DNA from: Acidobacteriota bacterium
Lineage (GTDB): Bacteria > Acidobacteriota > UBA6911 > RPQK01 > JAJDTT01
Assembly: GCA_022827025.1 (NCBI GenBank)
Contig: JAJDTT010000037.1
Coordinates: forward strand, 1 to 64,000
Length of the DNA stretch: 64,000 bases
Reading direction: 5' to 3'
Part shown: piece after piece, positions 9,707-13,995 of the stretch
Layout: every line of letters begins with the position of its first letter
Numbering within the stretch: the stretch's first letter is position 1
Program-made: the position numbers and the translations under genes
Notes under the pieces: model-generated
Databases searched by the model: none
Seen by the model: the letters and a program-made list of their open reading frames with translations, nothing else
Told to the model about the DNA's origin: nothing

Positions 9707-11350
9707 TCAGAACTTGTAGGCGAAGATCTTGGCCTGGAACATCCGGATGCGGATTGCCGCCGTCTCCCCGATCCCCGAGAGATCGCTCTTGCCCTTCCAG
9801 GTCACGACTCGATCGGACTCGTCGCCCGTGAGACGGTCGGATTCGGCGAAGGTGAAACCCTCGATGGGCGGCAGATCGGCCTGGTTCATGGAGGGGCTCT
9901 TCGTCATCAACTCCACGCTGATCCAGCCGCCGGGAGCGCACCGGTAGTTCAGCCGCAGCTCGTTCCCGTGCCGGTAGATGGTGGGAATCGTGAACCGGCC
10001 TTCGCTTTCCGCCTCGATCCCGCAGAAGCGGTGCGGTTTCCACAACATGTATCGGATCTGAATGGGCCGGCCCTGGGCAAAGAGATGGTCCTGTCCGTAG
10101 ACGTTGTGGAGGCTGGACATTCCCGTGTAGGGCACCGCCCAGAGTCCGTCGGGGAGCTCCAGCATGCCGTTGCGCCAGGTGTGCACCTGGCAATCGTCCC
10201 CGCTACCGGGCGGTCCGACGGCGTGGACCGGCCGGCGCTCCGGTCTCTGCCAGAAGAGGCCGTCCCGGCTGAAGGCGATCTGGGTGTCCACGTGGTCGTT
10301 TTGCTGGTGGTAGACGGGGATGACCATGACGTGAAGATCGGTGCGCCCCGGATAGGGGAAGTAGTTGGCCCCGTAGAAGGAAATGTCCAGGTCGTCCTGG
10401 GCGTCGGGAGCCAGGATCAGCTTGGGGGCCGGCCAGGTCCGGAAGTCCTTGGTCCGCGAGAACCCGATGACCCGCCGCTGCGTCTCCTCCTCGATCCGGG
10501 CGGTGCCGATCCCCGGCATTAGCTCGGCCGTGTTGCCCATGATCTGCTGGTAAGCGATGTACTCGCCGTTGGCCTCGTCGTAGTGGGCGGAGATGCCGCC
10601 GTTGACGGGGCGCATGCCCAGGGCCTTCTCCAGCGGCTTCCAGTCCCGGCCGTCCGGCGAGATCCAGCCCAGGGTGCGTCCCCAGATCTCCGCTCGAGGT
10701 CCCTTGTACGCGTCCTTCTCGTAGGTCTCCCGGTTCCAACGGCGCATGGCCTCCTCGCCTTCCAGCGGCTGCAGCGTCTCCGGGTCGTACCAGGCCATGT
10801 CGCCCCCCATGGCCTTGAAGCGTTCCGCCGCCGGCGCCTGGGGGTCGATGAAGACGCCGGTGGCGCCCCGGATGCCGTTTCGCAGGAGGTTGTTGGCGGA
10901 CGACCCGTCGAAATCGACCTGGCCCAGCTCCGGACGCGTCCAGTTGTAGCCGTCGGTGCTGGTGGCGTAGGCCGTGGCCTCGGCCCGCGAGCACTCGTAG
11001 ATCATGTGGAGCCGTCCGTCGGCTCTCCAGATGAACAGGGGGCCGATGAACTTCCCCTGCTCCCACTTCGCCGTCGCCTCCAGCAGGGGGTCGGAACTCT
11101 CTGCCTGTTCGACTCGGAGCTTGACCCCGATGGCGCCGTCGAACAGCCTGAAAACACCCTGGCGGTCCAACGCCCGGTTTCCCGGAAACACGTCGGTCAC
11201 GTCGACGACGGGGTTCCACGCTCCCGTGTTGACGCGGATCCGTTTGGACCGTTTCTGGGGTTCGGTGAAGGGAGAGGTCTTGATCTTCTCCTCAGCCACG
11301 GCTTCTGAGACGGGGCCCAACAGCAGTGCGATCACAAGCAGCCTGTTCAT
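9707..11350 (-). CDS. Secreted GH43/GH32-like five-bladed propeller protein
   Basis: A 547-residue secreted protein (signal MNRLLVIALLLGPVSEAVAEE). Repeating segments such as FIGPLFIWRADGRLHMIYEC, ATSTDGYNWTRPELGQ, WISPDGRDWKPL, FSRTKDFRTWPAP and FSRDGLFWQRPE are those of the glycosyl-hydrolase clan F/J propellers, seen in many uncharacterised carbohydrate-active proteins. The C-terminal 120 residues look like a beta-sandwich. I cannot identify a full catalytic triad, so activity is not claimed. It is 103 bases upstream of the 8293-9603 gene on the same strand and probably co-transcribed. Confidence 0.7.
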   Translation of the reverse strand: MNRLLVIALLLGPVSEAVAEEKIKTSPFTEPQKRSKRIRVNTGAWNPVVDVTDVFPGNRALDRQGVFRLFDGAIGVKLRVEQAESSDPLLEATAKWEQGKFIGPLFIWRADGRLHMIYECSRAEATAYATSTDGYNWTRPELGQVDFDGSSANNLLRNGIRGATGVFIDPQAPAAERFKAMGGDMAWYDPETLQPLEGEEAMRRWNRETYEKDAYKGPRAEIWGRTLGWISPDGRDWKPLEKALGMRPVNGGISAHYDEANGEYIAYQQIMGNTAELMPGIGTARIEEETQRRVIGFSRTKDFRTWPAPKLILAPDAQDDLDISFYGANYFPYPGRTDLHVMVIPVYHQQNDHVDTQIAFSRDGLFWQRPERRPVHAVGPPGSGDDCQVHTWRNGMLELPDGLWAVPYTGMSSLHNVYGQDHLFAQGRPIQIRYMLWKPHRFCGIEAESEGRFTIPTIYRHGNELRLNYRCAPGGWISVELMTKSPSMNQADLPPIEGFTFAESDRLTGDESDRVVTWKGKSDLSGIGETAAIRIRMFQAKIFAYKF

Positions 11351-11483
11351 GGTTCGACCTTTCCAAGAAAAAATGAAGACATGGGTTGTTATTGAAATCC
11401 ATAGGAGATTCGCATGCCCTCGAAGGCAAATTCAACAACCGGCCTCGACCAGTTCAACATCGCCATGGGCTACAAATTCTGAG

Positions 11484-11615
11484 GGAGCGGCGACTTTCTA
11501 GTCGCCGACTGGGATCGGCGTCCTTCCGGGCGCCGGGAATGGCGACGTGGAGCGGCGACTCAGCCGGGGGGAACGATGCGACCCCGCAGGGCACCCACAA
11601 GGGGTGCCCCTACGG
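11484..11615. repeat. Composite palindromic repeat, copy B (complete)
   Basis: This is the inverted counterpart of 1-118, here extending through the whole family-1 hairpin at 11589-11615 (GGGCACCC ... GGGTGCCCC then TACGG). The family-2 hairpin is at 11484-11506 (GGCGACT, loop TTCT, AGTCGCC). The two copies are 11.5 kb apart in inverted orientation and could support recombinational inversion of the segment between them. Confidence 0.8.
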
Positions 11616-11666
11616 TCATCGGGGAGGGGAGGTTTCGAAGAAGCGCACCACTTCGGCAAAGAGCAC

Positions 11667-11715
11667 GGGGCGCCTAAAGACGCCCCTCCAGTCGGCGCGT
11701 GAAACACGCCGCTCC
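11667..11715. repeat. Two family-2 hairpins in tandem
   Basis: 11667-11689 has arms GGGGCGcC and GaCGCCCC around TAAA and ends in TCC. 11694-11715 has arms GGCGcGT and ACaCGCC around GAA and ends in GCTCC. The stems differ from the common GGCGACT/AGTCGCC version, but base pairing is largely kept, and both keep the purine loop and the trailing CTCC. Confidence 0.6.
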
Positions 11716-11762
11716 GACGCCCGTCCCGGTCGGTGTGCCCGGAAGGGCGCCGGTGCTCGTTT

Positions 11763-11786
11763 GGAGGGGCGTCATTCTTGGCGCCC
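11763..11786. repeat. Family-2 hairpin, reverse orientation
   Basis: GGAGGGGCGTC, loop ATTCTT, GGCGCCC: the order GGAG-stem-loop-stem is the reverse complement of the usual stem-loop-stem-CTCC. One mismatch lies at the loop-proximal end. Confidence 0.5.
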
Positions 11787-11890
11787 TCTTTCGAGCGTTG
11801 GGTGTGCTCGAAGCTCGGCGGCTGGACGTCTTGGGGCTTTTCTTCGGAGCTCCCCCACCGGCCCCGGTCCGGCGAAATCCTGCGTGAAAA

Positions 11891-11946
11891 GGAGTGGGGG
11901 TTTTCCTACCCCCACTCCCTCGGGGGGACTAAAAGTCCCCCCTCCT
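11891..11946. repeat. Two adjacent strong hairpins (GGAGTGGGGG and GGGGGACT stems)
   Basis: 11891-11918: arms GGAGTGGGGG and CCCCCACTCC around TTTTCCTA. 11922-11946: arms GGGGGACT and AGTCCCCC around AA, followed by CTCC. The second is a family-2 member with a changed stem that still pairs perfectly. Confidence 0.6.
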
Positions 11947-11999
11947 ATTCGCCCAACTCCGGCCCCGCCGGAGACCAGCGAAGGCAACCGTGGCGAAGA

Positions 12000-12023
12000 G
12001 GGGGACAAGAATGTCCCCCCTCC
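12000..12023. repeat. Family-2 hairpin, GGGGGACA stem
   Basis: Arms GGGGGACA and TGTCCCCC around AGAA, followed by CTCC. Compared with 11922-11946, the loop-closing pair is A-T instead of T-A: a compensated double change. Confidence 0.6.
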
Positions 12024-12161
12024 GGGTGCCCCATGGTTTTCTCAGACGAAGGGAGATCGGTCCTTCCGTTCGTTTTCGGGCTGGGGGAGGGGTGAGGAAG
12101 AACACGGGCGGGGAGAGCCGATGCGGCCGTCCGGTTTTTCTTGAATGCGAGGTCGTAAGAC

Positions 12162-12184
12162 GGCGCCAGGGATGACGCCGCTCC
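12162..12184. repeat. Family-2 hairpin, imperfect
   Basis: GGCGCCAGGGATGACGCCGCTCC: outer arms GGCG and CGCC pair, and the trailing GCTCC is conserved. Inner pairing is weak. Confidence 0.45.
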
Positions 12185-12224
12185 TTCACTTGCAACATGG
12201 ATACTCCGGACGCCGGTCCCAGTC

Positions 12225-12247
12225 GGCGACTGGAAAGTCGCCGCTCC
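12225..12247. repeat. Family-2 hairpin, GGCGACT stem
   Basis: Arms GGCGACT and AGTCGCC around GGAA, followed by GCTCC. The preceding bases CGCCGGTCCCAGTC also match the flank of the copy at 96-118, so homology extends beyond the hairpin. Confidence 0.65.
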
Positions 12248-12307
12248 ACCCCCCCGGTTCGGTATTGCCCAGGCAATGGCGGGCGGACGGTGGCGCCGTT
12301 CGGGGGA

Positions 12308-12332
12308 GGGCGACCACAAGGGTCGCCCCTAC
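12308..12332. repeat. Family-1 hairpin, solitary copy
   Basis: GGGCGACC, loop ACAAG, GGTCGCCCC then TAC. It has the GGGCGACC/GGTCGCCC stem, whereas 11589-11615 has GGGCACCC/GGGTGCCC: two paired positions are changed together. Confidence 0.65.
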
Positions 12333-12497
12333 GAGTCGTTCGACAGCGGCAACGCGGTGGGTGCCGCTGATGGACAATCCCCGCCCGGTTTCTCGCGGGA
12401 TCATGCCGGAGGCCCGGAGGGGCGACTTCCAGTCGCCCACTGGAAGGGCAGTTTCTCGCGGGATCATGCCGGGGGCCCGGCGGTGGGGGACTTCTGA
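12332..12497. repeat. Second repeat block, copy B with internal duplication
   Basis: It matches 153-255 directly, but the 29-base unit beginning TTTCTCGCGGGATCATGCC occurs twice (12389-12417 and 12452-12480) with a family-2 hairpin (12420-12438, GGGCGACT, TCC, AGTCGCCC) between the two copies. This suggests a hairpin-associated duplication after the two copies separated. It ends next to a family-3 motif (12495-12513). Confidence 0.75.
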
Positions 12498-12555
12498 GAA
12501 ATGCGGGTTAACCGGAGTAAAACACGGCCAATTCAAGATCCGGGAGACGGTGATA

Positions 12556-13995
12556 CTAACTGGCGCCGCGGCCCCAGACGACGGCCGGGATGGTCTTGAG
12601 CAGAATCCAGAGATCGAGCTTCAGGGACCACTGGTCGATGTACTGGAGATCCAGCTTCATCCATTTCTGGAAATCCAGCTCGTTGCGGCCGGAGATCTGC
12701 CAGAGACAGGTGATGCCCGGCTTGACGCTCAGCCGCCGCCGCTGGCTCCGGGAATAGTGGCGGACCTCCTCGGGCAACGGCGCCCGGGGGCCGACCAGGC
12801 TCATCTCGCCTCTCACCACGTTGGCCAGTTGCGGCAACTCGTCGATGCTGTACCGGCGCAGAATGCGCCCCACGGGAGTCACCCGTGGATCTTTGCGCAT
12901 CTTGAACACCGGGCCATCCATCTCGTTGAGATGCCGGATCTCCTGGAGCTGGTCTTCGGCCCCCTCCACCATGGTGCGAAATTTGACCAGCCTGAACTCC
13001 CGGCCGTAGAGACCACGCCTGACCTGGCGGTAGAAGACCGATCCGGATGAGGTGAACTTGATCAGGGCCATGATCAGGAGCATGAAGGGAGCCGCCACCG
13101 CCAGGAGAGCCGAGGCCAGCACACAGTCCATGACCCTCTTGACCACCAGGGCCACGCTCTGGTCGGGGGCCGTCGAGAAGGTGATGAGGGGAAGCTCTTC
13201 CAGGTAATCGAGCGATAGCCTGGAAATGGACGTGGGGAAAAAGTCCGCGGCGATACGGGTCCGGATTCCGAGCTCCTCACAAAGCCCCAGCACCTCCTGA
13301 AACTGCCGGTTGTCCTCCGGCTGCGCGCCCACGAATATGATCTCGTCCACGACCAGACGGTCCGTGAGCAGACCGGGAAGATCCTCCAGCGAGCCCAGGA
13401 TCCGGATTCCGGGAACCTCGTTCCAGGTTTCTTCCGGGGCCAGATGTCCGACGACACGGTAGCCCCACTTTCGGAACCGGCTCAGAACCTGGCTGACGGA
13501 CTTGGCCCTGGAGTCGATTCCCACGATCAGGATCCGGACCTGATGGTGCTCGTTGACGTTCCGGGTCCTCAAGATCCAATGCAGAACGATGCGGTTCAGA
13601 CCCATGAAGAAGCCGGAGAGTCCGATGAAGATGAAGAAGACGGGCCGGCTCACCTCCAGGTTGAACACGAAGACGAAGAAGCCCACCGCGAAACCGGCGG
13701 CACAGAGGAAGCGGGCGATGCGGAAAAGGTGCTGGAAGGCGGAGATCTGGTAGAAGCGGGAGTATCGTTGGGTGATCCGGAGGATGGGAATCCAAATCGG
13801 CAACGCGGCCAGCAGATAGAGCAGATACAGGGAATAGTCCAGCAGCTTCGGATGGAAAGCGGACTCGATCGAGGCCGGCGCCCATGCCATAAGCAGGGAT
13901 CGGGAGAAATACGCCAGGGTCAAGGCCAGAAAGGCGACGGCGATGTCCGCTGCCTGAAGCAGGTTGCCGTAGACTCGAGACTGGCGATCGAACAT
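12556..13995 (-). CDS. Polyprenyl-phosphate sugar phosphotransferase (exopolysaccharide priming enzyme)
   Basis: A 479-residue WbaP/CpsE-type enzyme that moves a sugar-1-phosphate from a nucleotide sugar to undecaprenyl phosphate, starting an exopolysaccharide or O-antigen repeat. The N-terminal third has four hydrophobic segments. The middle is a nucleotide-fold-like domain (IRILIVGIDSRAKSVSQVL). The C-terminal bacterial sugar transferase domain begins VKRVMDCVLASALLAVAAPF and contains GREFRLVKFRTM, RRYSIDELPQLANVVRGEMS, LVGPRAPLPEE and VKPGITCLWQISGR. No other polysaccharide genes are in the window. It lies 59 bases downstream of bshB1. Confidence 0.92.
   Translation of the reverse strand: MFDRQSRVYGNLLQAADIAVAFLALTLAYFSRSLLMAWAPASIESAFHPKLLDYSLYLLYLLAALPIWIPILRITQRYSRFYQISAFQHLFRIARFLCAAGFAVGFFVFVFNLEVSRPVFFIFIGLSGFFMGLNRIVLHWILRTRNVNEHHQVRILIVGIDSRAKSVSQVLSRFRKWGYRVVGHLAPEETWNEVPGIRILGSLEDLPGLLTDRLVVDEIIFVGAQPEDNRQFQEVLGLCEELGIRTRIAADFFPTSISRLSLDYLEELPLITFSTAPDQSVALVVKRVMDCVLASALLAVAAPFMLLIMALIKFTSSGSVFYRQVRRGLYGREFRLVKFRTMVEGAEDQLQEIRHLNEMDGPVFKMRKDPRVTPVGRILRRYSIDELPQLANVVRGEMSLVGPRAPLPEEVRHYSRSQRRRLSVKPGITCLWQISGRNELDFQKWMKLDLQYIDQWSLKLDLWILLKTIPAVVWGRGAS

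Follow-up and report, generated by a model that had tools for sequence, protein, structure and literature searches.

Layout of the Hairpin Cluster

The window, a stretch of 64,000 nucleotides that was analyzed as a whole, contains a run of hairpin-bearing intergenic DNA at 11403-12548, flanked by two genes on the minus strand. This main cluster comprises ten paired hairpins that carry the tetranucleotide GGAG, one unit of which only half is present, and two GTAG-tagged hairpins that belong to a separate family; one of the ten paired units is a double-ended palindrome with a 7-bp stem. An earlier note on this DNA had described hairpin units with variable stems, a constant tag, and both orientations, and in these respects its description was accurate: all five stems that it quoted are present (11484-11507 and 12224-12247; 11923-11945; 12000-12023; 11693-11715; 11668-11689), and units lie on both strands of the cluster. 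In addition to the family that the note described, the cluster contains the hairpins at 11589-11613 and 12308-12332, both on the minus strand, which belong to the GTAG family. The features are as follows.

9707-11350, minus: flanking gene; no Pfam family above cut-off
11403-12548, no strand: REP cluster, an insertion relative to three congeners, whose homology ends at its edges
11484-11507, plus: GGAG REP, GGAG CGGCGACT ttct AGTCGCCG, then ACT
11549-11560, plus: 5' half of a GGAG REP (GGAGCGGCGACT), without right arm
11589-11613, minus: GTAG-family REP, GTAG GGGCACCC cttgt GGGTGCCC
11668-11689, minus: GGAG REP, GGAG GGGCGTCT tt AGGCGCCC (T.G pair)
11688-12207, no strand: 520-bp block, 94% identical to RAYT-adjoining DNA of locus L002 (L002:2177-2688)
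11693-11715, minus: GGAG REP, GGAG CGGCGTGT ttc ACGCGCCG (T.G pair)
11763-11786, plus: GGAG REP, GGAG GGGCGTCA ttct TGGCGCCC (T.G pair)
11891-11918, no strand: double-ended GGAG palindrome GGAGTGGGGGTTTTCCTACCCCCACTCC (GGAGTGGGGGT..ACCCCCACTCC)
11923-11945, minus: GGAG REP, GGAG GGGGGACT ttt AGTCCCCC; the same unit flanks the RAYT of locus L001
12000-12023, minus: GGAG REP, GGAG GGGGGACA ttct TGTCCCCC; the same unit is present in L002
12161-12184, minus: GGAG REP, GGAG CGGCGTCA tccc TGGCGCCG (T.G pair)
12224-12247, minus: GGAG REP, GGAG CGGCGACT ttcc AGTCGCCG
12308-12332, minus: GTAG-family REP, GTAG GGGCGACC cttgt GGTCGCCC
12416-12438, plus: GGAG REP, GGAG GGGCGACT tcc AGTCGCCC; GGGCGACT is a form of the CGGCGACT stem
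12556-13995, minus: flanking gene, bacterial sugar transferase
95-118, minus: further GGAG REP, outside the cluster and with exactly the sequence of the 11484 unit

The DNA at 11484-11603 recurs at 118-1 with 98% identity. The 11484 unit is followed by a tandem second hairpin with the tag GGAT (window 11510-11535). Tandem second hairpins with a mutated tag (ACTG-GGAT/GGAC-CGGCGTCC-ttcc-GGGCGCCG) accompany many units, and similar tails occur elsewhere; the dimer of hairpin and second hairpin seems to have been amplified as one unit. Rfam, searched at gathering thresholds, gave no match within the window. The GC-rich REP cluster also gives rise to long spurious open reading frames at 11004-12536 (with peptides such as ERRLSSRRLG, GTHKGCPYGHR, and VGATLVVAL), which automatic annotation could mistake for proteins.

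Unit Architecture and Tag Specificity

Read on the better-folding strand, a unit begins with 5'-GGAG, which is followed by an 8-bp stem enclosing a pyrimidine loop of 2-4 nt with the form T[TC][TC]n. The loop, which had been called constant, is only loosely so. The trailing CTCC of the earlier description is indeed constant, but its 3' placement is not upheld: only the reverse complement had been seen, and on the folding strand the tag is a leading GGAG. When the same stem and loop rule was applied with different tags to unselected contigs of the genome, GGAG gave 200 units, and GTAG, GCAG, GGTG, AGAG, CGAG, and TGAG gave 0. Counts for near tags were 1 each for GGGG and GGCG, 7 for GAAG, 11 for GGAT, 16 for GGAC, and 17 for GGAA; by inspection, some of the GGAT-, GGAC-, and GGAA-tagged units are second hairpins of tandem dimers. 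The density of 219 units in 1.243 Mb of unselected contigs corresponds to an estimated ~940 per 5.33-Mb genome, and a covariance model counted at least 228 units, from 150 of 8270 candidates. GGAG units occur singly, in tandem, or in mixed arrangements. A CT 3' of the unit is common (ACT 97 and TCT 48 among 336 contexts); its conservation was considered as proof of a cleavage site and dropped, as the copies share ancestry and other species lack it.

REP elements are defined by a conserved tetranucleotide GT[A/G]G and a palindrome of variable base composition (Nunvar 2013, PMC3686654). The GGAG units are dispersed in high copy number and have a downstream palindrome of variable base composition, but their 5' tetranucleotide is not the GT[A/G]G of Nunvar 2010/2013. 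Because the tag is GGAG, they represent a variant rather than a canonical REP, and it is this tag that sets them apart.

Stem Compensation and the Folding Strand

Stem pairing was analyzed in 1.56 Mb of the same genome, the window included. With sites selected solely on the tag plus a loosely defined left arm, and the downstream arm scored afterwards, 355 of 674 sites formed 7-8 of 8 Watson-Crick pairs, compared to 3 of 674 with random downstream DNA, so the stems are not chance palindromes. The test for compensation fixed nothing but the tag, the loop, and three invariant stem pairs, so that five stem pairs were free on both sides; it yielded 423 copies with 72 distinct arm combinations. Across these combinations, standard pairs filled 81.9% of cells at the five free positions, compared to 48.9% after shuffling of the right-arm letters and a maximum of 55.3% in 2000 shuffles. 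Departures from the commonest pair were Watson-Crick in 111 cases, G.T in 33, and unpaired in 65, part of the latter being units read out of register. (In 13 hand-picked units, chosen for pairing, 100% of cells pair.) The data thus support the claim that paired changes preserve the hairpin; the opposite outcome named in the earlier note, paired changes being no commoner than unpaired ones, did not hold.

The mismatches reveal which strand folds. Units with one non-Watson-Crick pair, read on the GGAG strand, carry G.T in 141 copies and A.C in 5; counted by unit type, the ratio is 35 to 5, or 12 to 5 without the class with T.G at pair 6. Since strand-blind mutation would produce G.T and A.C equally, the skew indicates that folding is maintained on the GGAG strand. 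This bias makes the folding strand readable from sequence alone. The T.G pair, located three pairs from the loop (pair 6), is found in 124 of 373 units, with T-A at that position being rare (3 of 72 arm combinations), and units beside the RAYTs of other genomes, at L160 (Acidobacteriota) and at L165 and L175 (Verrucomicrobiota), have it in this position too.

RAYT Transposases Flanked by the Hairpins

The earlier suggestion to search for an associated transposase proved right. Two Y1 transposases in the genome score over the Pfam cut-off, and both are REP-associated tyrosine transposases (RAYTs) whose genes are flanked by the same GGAG hairpins.

L001:1147-1803: P0001, RAYT
L002, minus: P0002, RAYT

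The two proteins are 64% identical. Both reach the PF01797 cut-off, and their matches to NF047646 (REP_Tyr_transpos; E 3.7e-18 and 2.6e-20) score 65.8 and 72.8 bits, below the 80-bit cut-off; the N-terminal ~100 residues of each lie outside the PF01797/NF047646 match. The catalytic motifs of P0002 and P0001 are NHVH and KHVH for HUH and YIRENP and YIRLNP for Y1, respectively, the latter in agreement with the class-2 signature Y-x-x-x-NP. A profile of the RAYT family matches the E. coli TnpA-REP/REP complex (4er8_A, E 2.5e-9); the profile was required, as phmmer with a single RAYT gave no match in the PDB. The same entry is the top Foldseek PDB match of an AF2 model (pLDDT 82), with a probability of 1.0. 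PADLOC had no match to the RAYTs. The arrangement expected of a RAYT, a gene flanked by copies of its cognate REP, is seen at L001, L002, and L160/L176. Very probably, the hairpins are spread by the two RAYT genes that sit between them.

A second, GTAG-tagged REP family coexists with the GGAG family and appears to have its own RAYT. A third, lower-scoring RAYT-like open reading frame (L062:143-1040 on G000:C20; NF047646 41.9 bits) contains a GTAG hairpin in frame between the HuH and Y motifs, read as the peptide RATTRVAPT, and about six GTAG hairpins lie within 1 kb around it; we take this RAYT as the partner of the GTAG family. In the window, GTAG hairpins form inverted pairs whose members are separated by ~120-150 bp (1032+/1150-, 19366+/19513-, and 37865+/38011-). 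Such pairs mostly combine one GGGCGACC-type and one GGGCACCC-type hairpin, resembling a two-part REPIN/BIME.

Distribution among Relatives and Empty Sites

Among 40 relatives searched, the REP model matched four genomes of the same genus (at least 182, 135, 101, and 83 matches) and none of the 36 others. Each of the four encodes a RAYT homologue that is at least 67% identical. Three congeners (G290, G037, and G314), which carry the elements throughout their genomes, match the window only as far as 11401-11402 on one side and 12549-12556 on the other, and no REPs were found within 1.5 kb of the counterparts of either edge. What the congeners have after the sugar-transferase gene lies, in this genome, on contig C107, which begins with ~310 bases of REPs; a search of this genome for one missing flank, beyond L265, gave no match. 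Unless the assembler joined two repeats, the REPs either arrived at this site after the split or disappeared from three lineages, with rearrangement of the junction at a REP cluster. The assembly is fragmented into 318 contigs, which often end in GGAG repeats, and for this reason the junction at 11403-12548 could be an assembly join. Many contigs of the genome (for example, G000 contigs C9, C31, C60, C88, and C107) end within a few hundred bases of REPs, which means that these repeats break up the genome and may give rise to joins.

Tag Switching in the RAYT Clade

Members of the RAYT clade were gathered from named genomes and from a phylum survey that covered 57 of 396 genomes. Of the tree members, 20 (Acidobacteriota, Verrucomicrobiota) have inverted GGAG hairpins beside the RAYT, and for 17 (Acidobacteriota, Verrucomicrobiota, Planctomycetota) the tag of these hairpins is GTAG/GTGG. 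In a tree for which the key column was masked, and with tag calls made partly by eye, the tag changes four times, compared to 12.5 changes expected on shuffling; at least three of the four are forced by well-supported branches. The column that separates the tags corresponds to Y184 of P0002, in the segment W-Q-x-x-Y-x-D-R-x-x-R. Every GGAG RAYT has Tyr or Phe there and every GTAG/GTGG RAYT has Ser, which makes 37 of 37 members of the final tree; the rule was found on 29 members and held in 8 more (six Ser with GT tags and two Tyr with GGAG). In the alignment, the E. coli counterpart of Y184 is F98, which lies between Q95 and E100/R104 in a stretch that is reported to contact the tag (PMC6006769, PMC8266576).

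It is important to note that the independent tag contrasts number three to four, all concordant, with a sign test p of 0.25, and that the link between tag and residue, drawn from sequence comparison, is correlative and confined to this RAYT clade. A universal residue rule was rejected, given that the aligned position is Phe in E. coli TnpA-REP and Tyr in the L062 RAYT, both of which go with GTAG tags. Among other RAYT relatives, the Tyr members L225, L237, and L249 have GCAG/GCGG-like flanks, and some further Tyr members have no recognizable REP. Long hairpins preceded by GCAG/GCGG accompany L225, L237, L249, and L259, and a further tag type is possible.

We propose tentatively, at somewhat less than an even chance, that GGAG REPs represent a second tag class kept by a RAYT clade of Acidobacteriota and Verrucomicrobiota, that a change between Ser and Tyr/Phe accompanies each T/G switch at base 2 of the tag, and that guide specificity can be switched while stems drift under pairing.

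A Model for GGAG-Tagged REP Elements

With high confidence, the units can be described as GGAG-tagged REP elements, short nonautonomous DNA hairpins spread by HUH/Y1 transposases, the RAYTs (TnpA-REP), that the genome itself encodes. This reading is based on ~940 copies with compensated stems, on the flanked RAYTs, on the genus-only distribution and the empty sites, and on a tag that follows RAYT phylogeny; mobility itself we infer from the number of copies, the empty sites, and the linkage to RAYTs. In the published model, the tag acts as a guide, with cleavage at CT relying on pairing with A3G4 and cleavage at CA on pairing with T2G4 (PMC8266576). By analogy, the RAYT would bind the folded GGAG strand when it is single stranded, with the tag serving as guide and the hairpin as shape. 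Because GGAG keeps A3G4, cleavage would be expected at the CT beside the hairpin, with A3G4 of the tag paired to it, and pairing through G2G4 would make CC possible. When five window units were folded as DNA, three had A3G4 positioned on the CT that follows the hairpin. The stem would be free to drift while pairing holds, including the T.G three pairs from the loop, and residue 184 may, judging from the alignment, contribute to tag reading.

Paired changes could also arise if template switching during replication copied one arm onto the other, requiring neither selection nor transposition. Template switching inside hairpins is a known mutational process that would yield perfect stems, and it may contribute within copies. 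Such correction should, however, erase T.G pairs, yet T.G occupies pair 6 in 124 of 373 units, where T-A is rare, and copy number, tag, and RAYT linkage would be left unexplained; we consider it improbable as the main cause. A role mainly as RNA hairpins (terminators, attenuators, or mRNA stabilizers), with selection on transcripts keeping stems paired, would account for the G.T over A.C asymmetry as well as a single-stranded DNA hairpin does, and Di Nocera 2013 (PMC3733652) argued that many REPs are transcribed. Both orientations in one intergenic region between two minus-strand genes are difficult to reconcile with such a role, as are the few T runs after units, and neither the conservation of a 4-nt tag nor RAYT linkage would follow from it, making it slightly less probable again. 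Four terminator-like sites, one of which is a unit, were found where 1.8 are expected, an enrichment too small for intrinsic terminators to account for the units. An exapted RNA role for some copies is possible.

Larger composite blocks recur, such as the 520-bp block with 94% identity, as they would if the hairpins were ends or remnants of degenerate, MITE-like insertion sequences rather than REPs with a dedicated RAYT. We regard this as the least probable reading: apart from the two RAYTs between GGAG hairpins, no Y1 transposase of the genome scores over the Pfam cut-off, the RAYTs' best structural and sequence match is TnpA-REP and not IS200/IS605 TnpA, and the common unit is a single tagged hairpin.

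For GGAG-tagged REPs spread by RAYTs, a tag switch in one RAYT clade with a single matching residue offers a testable handle on guide reading by RAYTs, which are domesticated transposases, and on stem variability. Many genome-wide repeats and spurious open reading frames in Acidobacteriota may be GGAG elements.

Comparison with Known Systems

The GGAG units resemble the GTAG REP/RAYT REPtrons (Nunvar 2010/2013, Di Nocera 2013, Corneloup 2021) in having a 5' tetranucleotide that directly abuts the base of a short GC-rich hairpin, copy numbers in the hundreds, subfamilies with complementary stems, and a RAYT flanked by inverted copies; the 8-bp stem and short loop are similar to those of the S. 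maltophilia REP. They differ in the tag, GGAG instead of GTAG/GTGG, in the T[TC][TC] loop, in the frequent T.G three pairs from the loop, and in RAYTs whose N-terminal ~100 residues lie outside the family match. The earlier note had contrasted the units with ordinary REPs, taken to be conserved in sequence. This contrast fails, since compensated or variable stems are known (PMC3733652, PMC3686654) and most GTAG families split into subfamilies with alternative complementary stem residues (Di Nocera 2013, PMC3733652). What appears new here is the GGAG tag, which we could not find described: a literature search of open-licence papers found no mention of GGAG together with a REP-associated tyrosine transposase.

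By description, the RAYTs resemble TnpA-Y1 subclass 2.7 (PMC6006769), with its [ND]HVH, WQ, and YI[LR]xNP motifs, a median length of ~213 aa, and long hairpin REPs; in contrast, that subclass is described with 5' GT[AG]G REPs only. The motif search of the TnpA-Y1 survey admitted GTAG or GTGG only (Quentin 2018, PMC6006769), and GGAG elements would therefore escape it. More generally, published surveys sought GTAG/GTGG (or CGTC) tags and would therefore have overlooked GGAG elements, which occur in at least two phyla. The in-gene REP of the L062 RAYT is an arrangement described for subclass 2.4 (PMC6006769), and this subclass 2.4-like RAYT would serve the GTAG family, unlike the RAYTs of the GGAG family. 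Finally, the TIRYTs of Acidobacteria (Di Nocera 2013) are likewise tyrosine transposases with inverted flanking repeats, but their TIRs reportedly bear no relation to GTAG REPs, many having the consensus GGGGWSAS, whereas the flanks described here are tagged hairpins.
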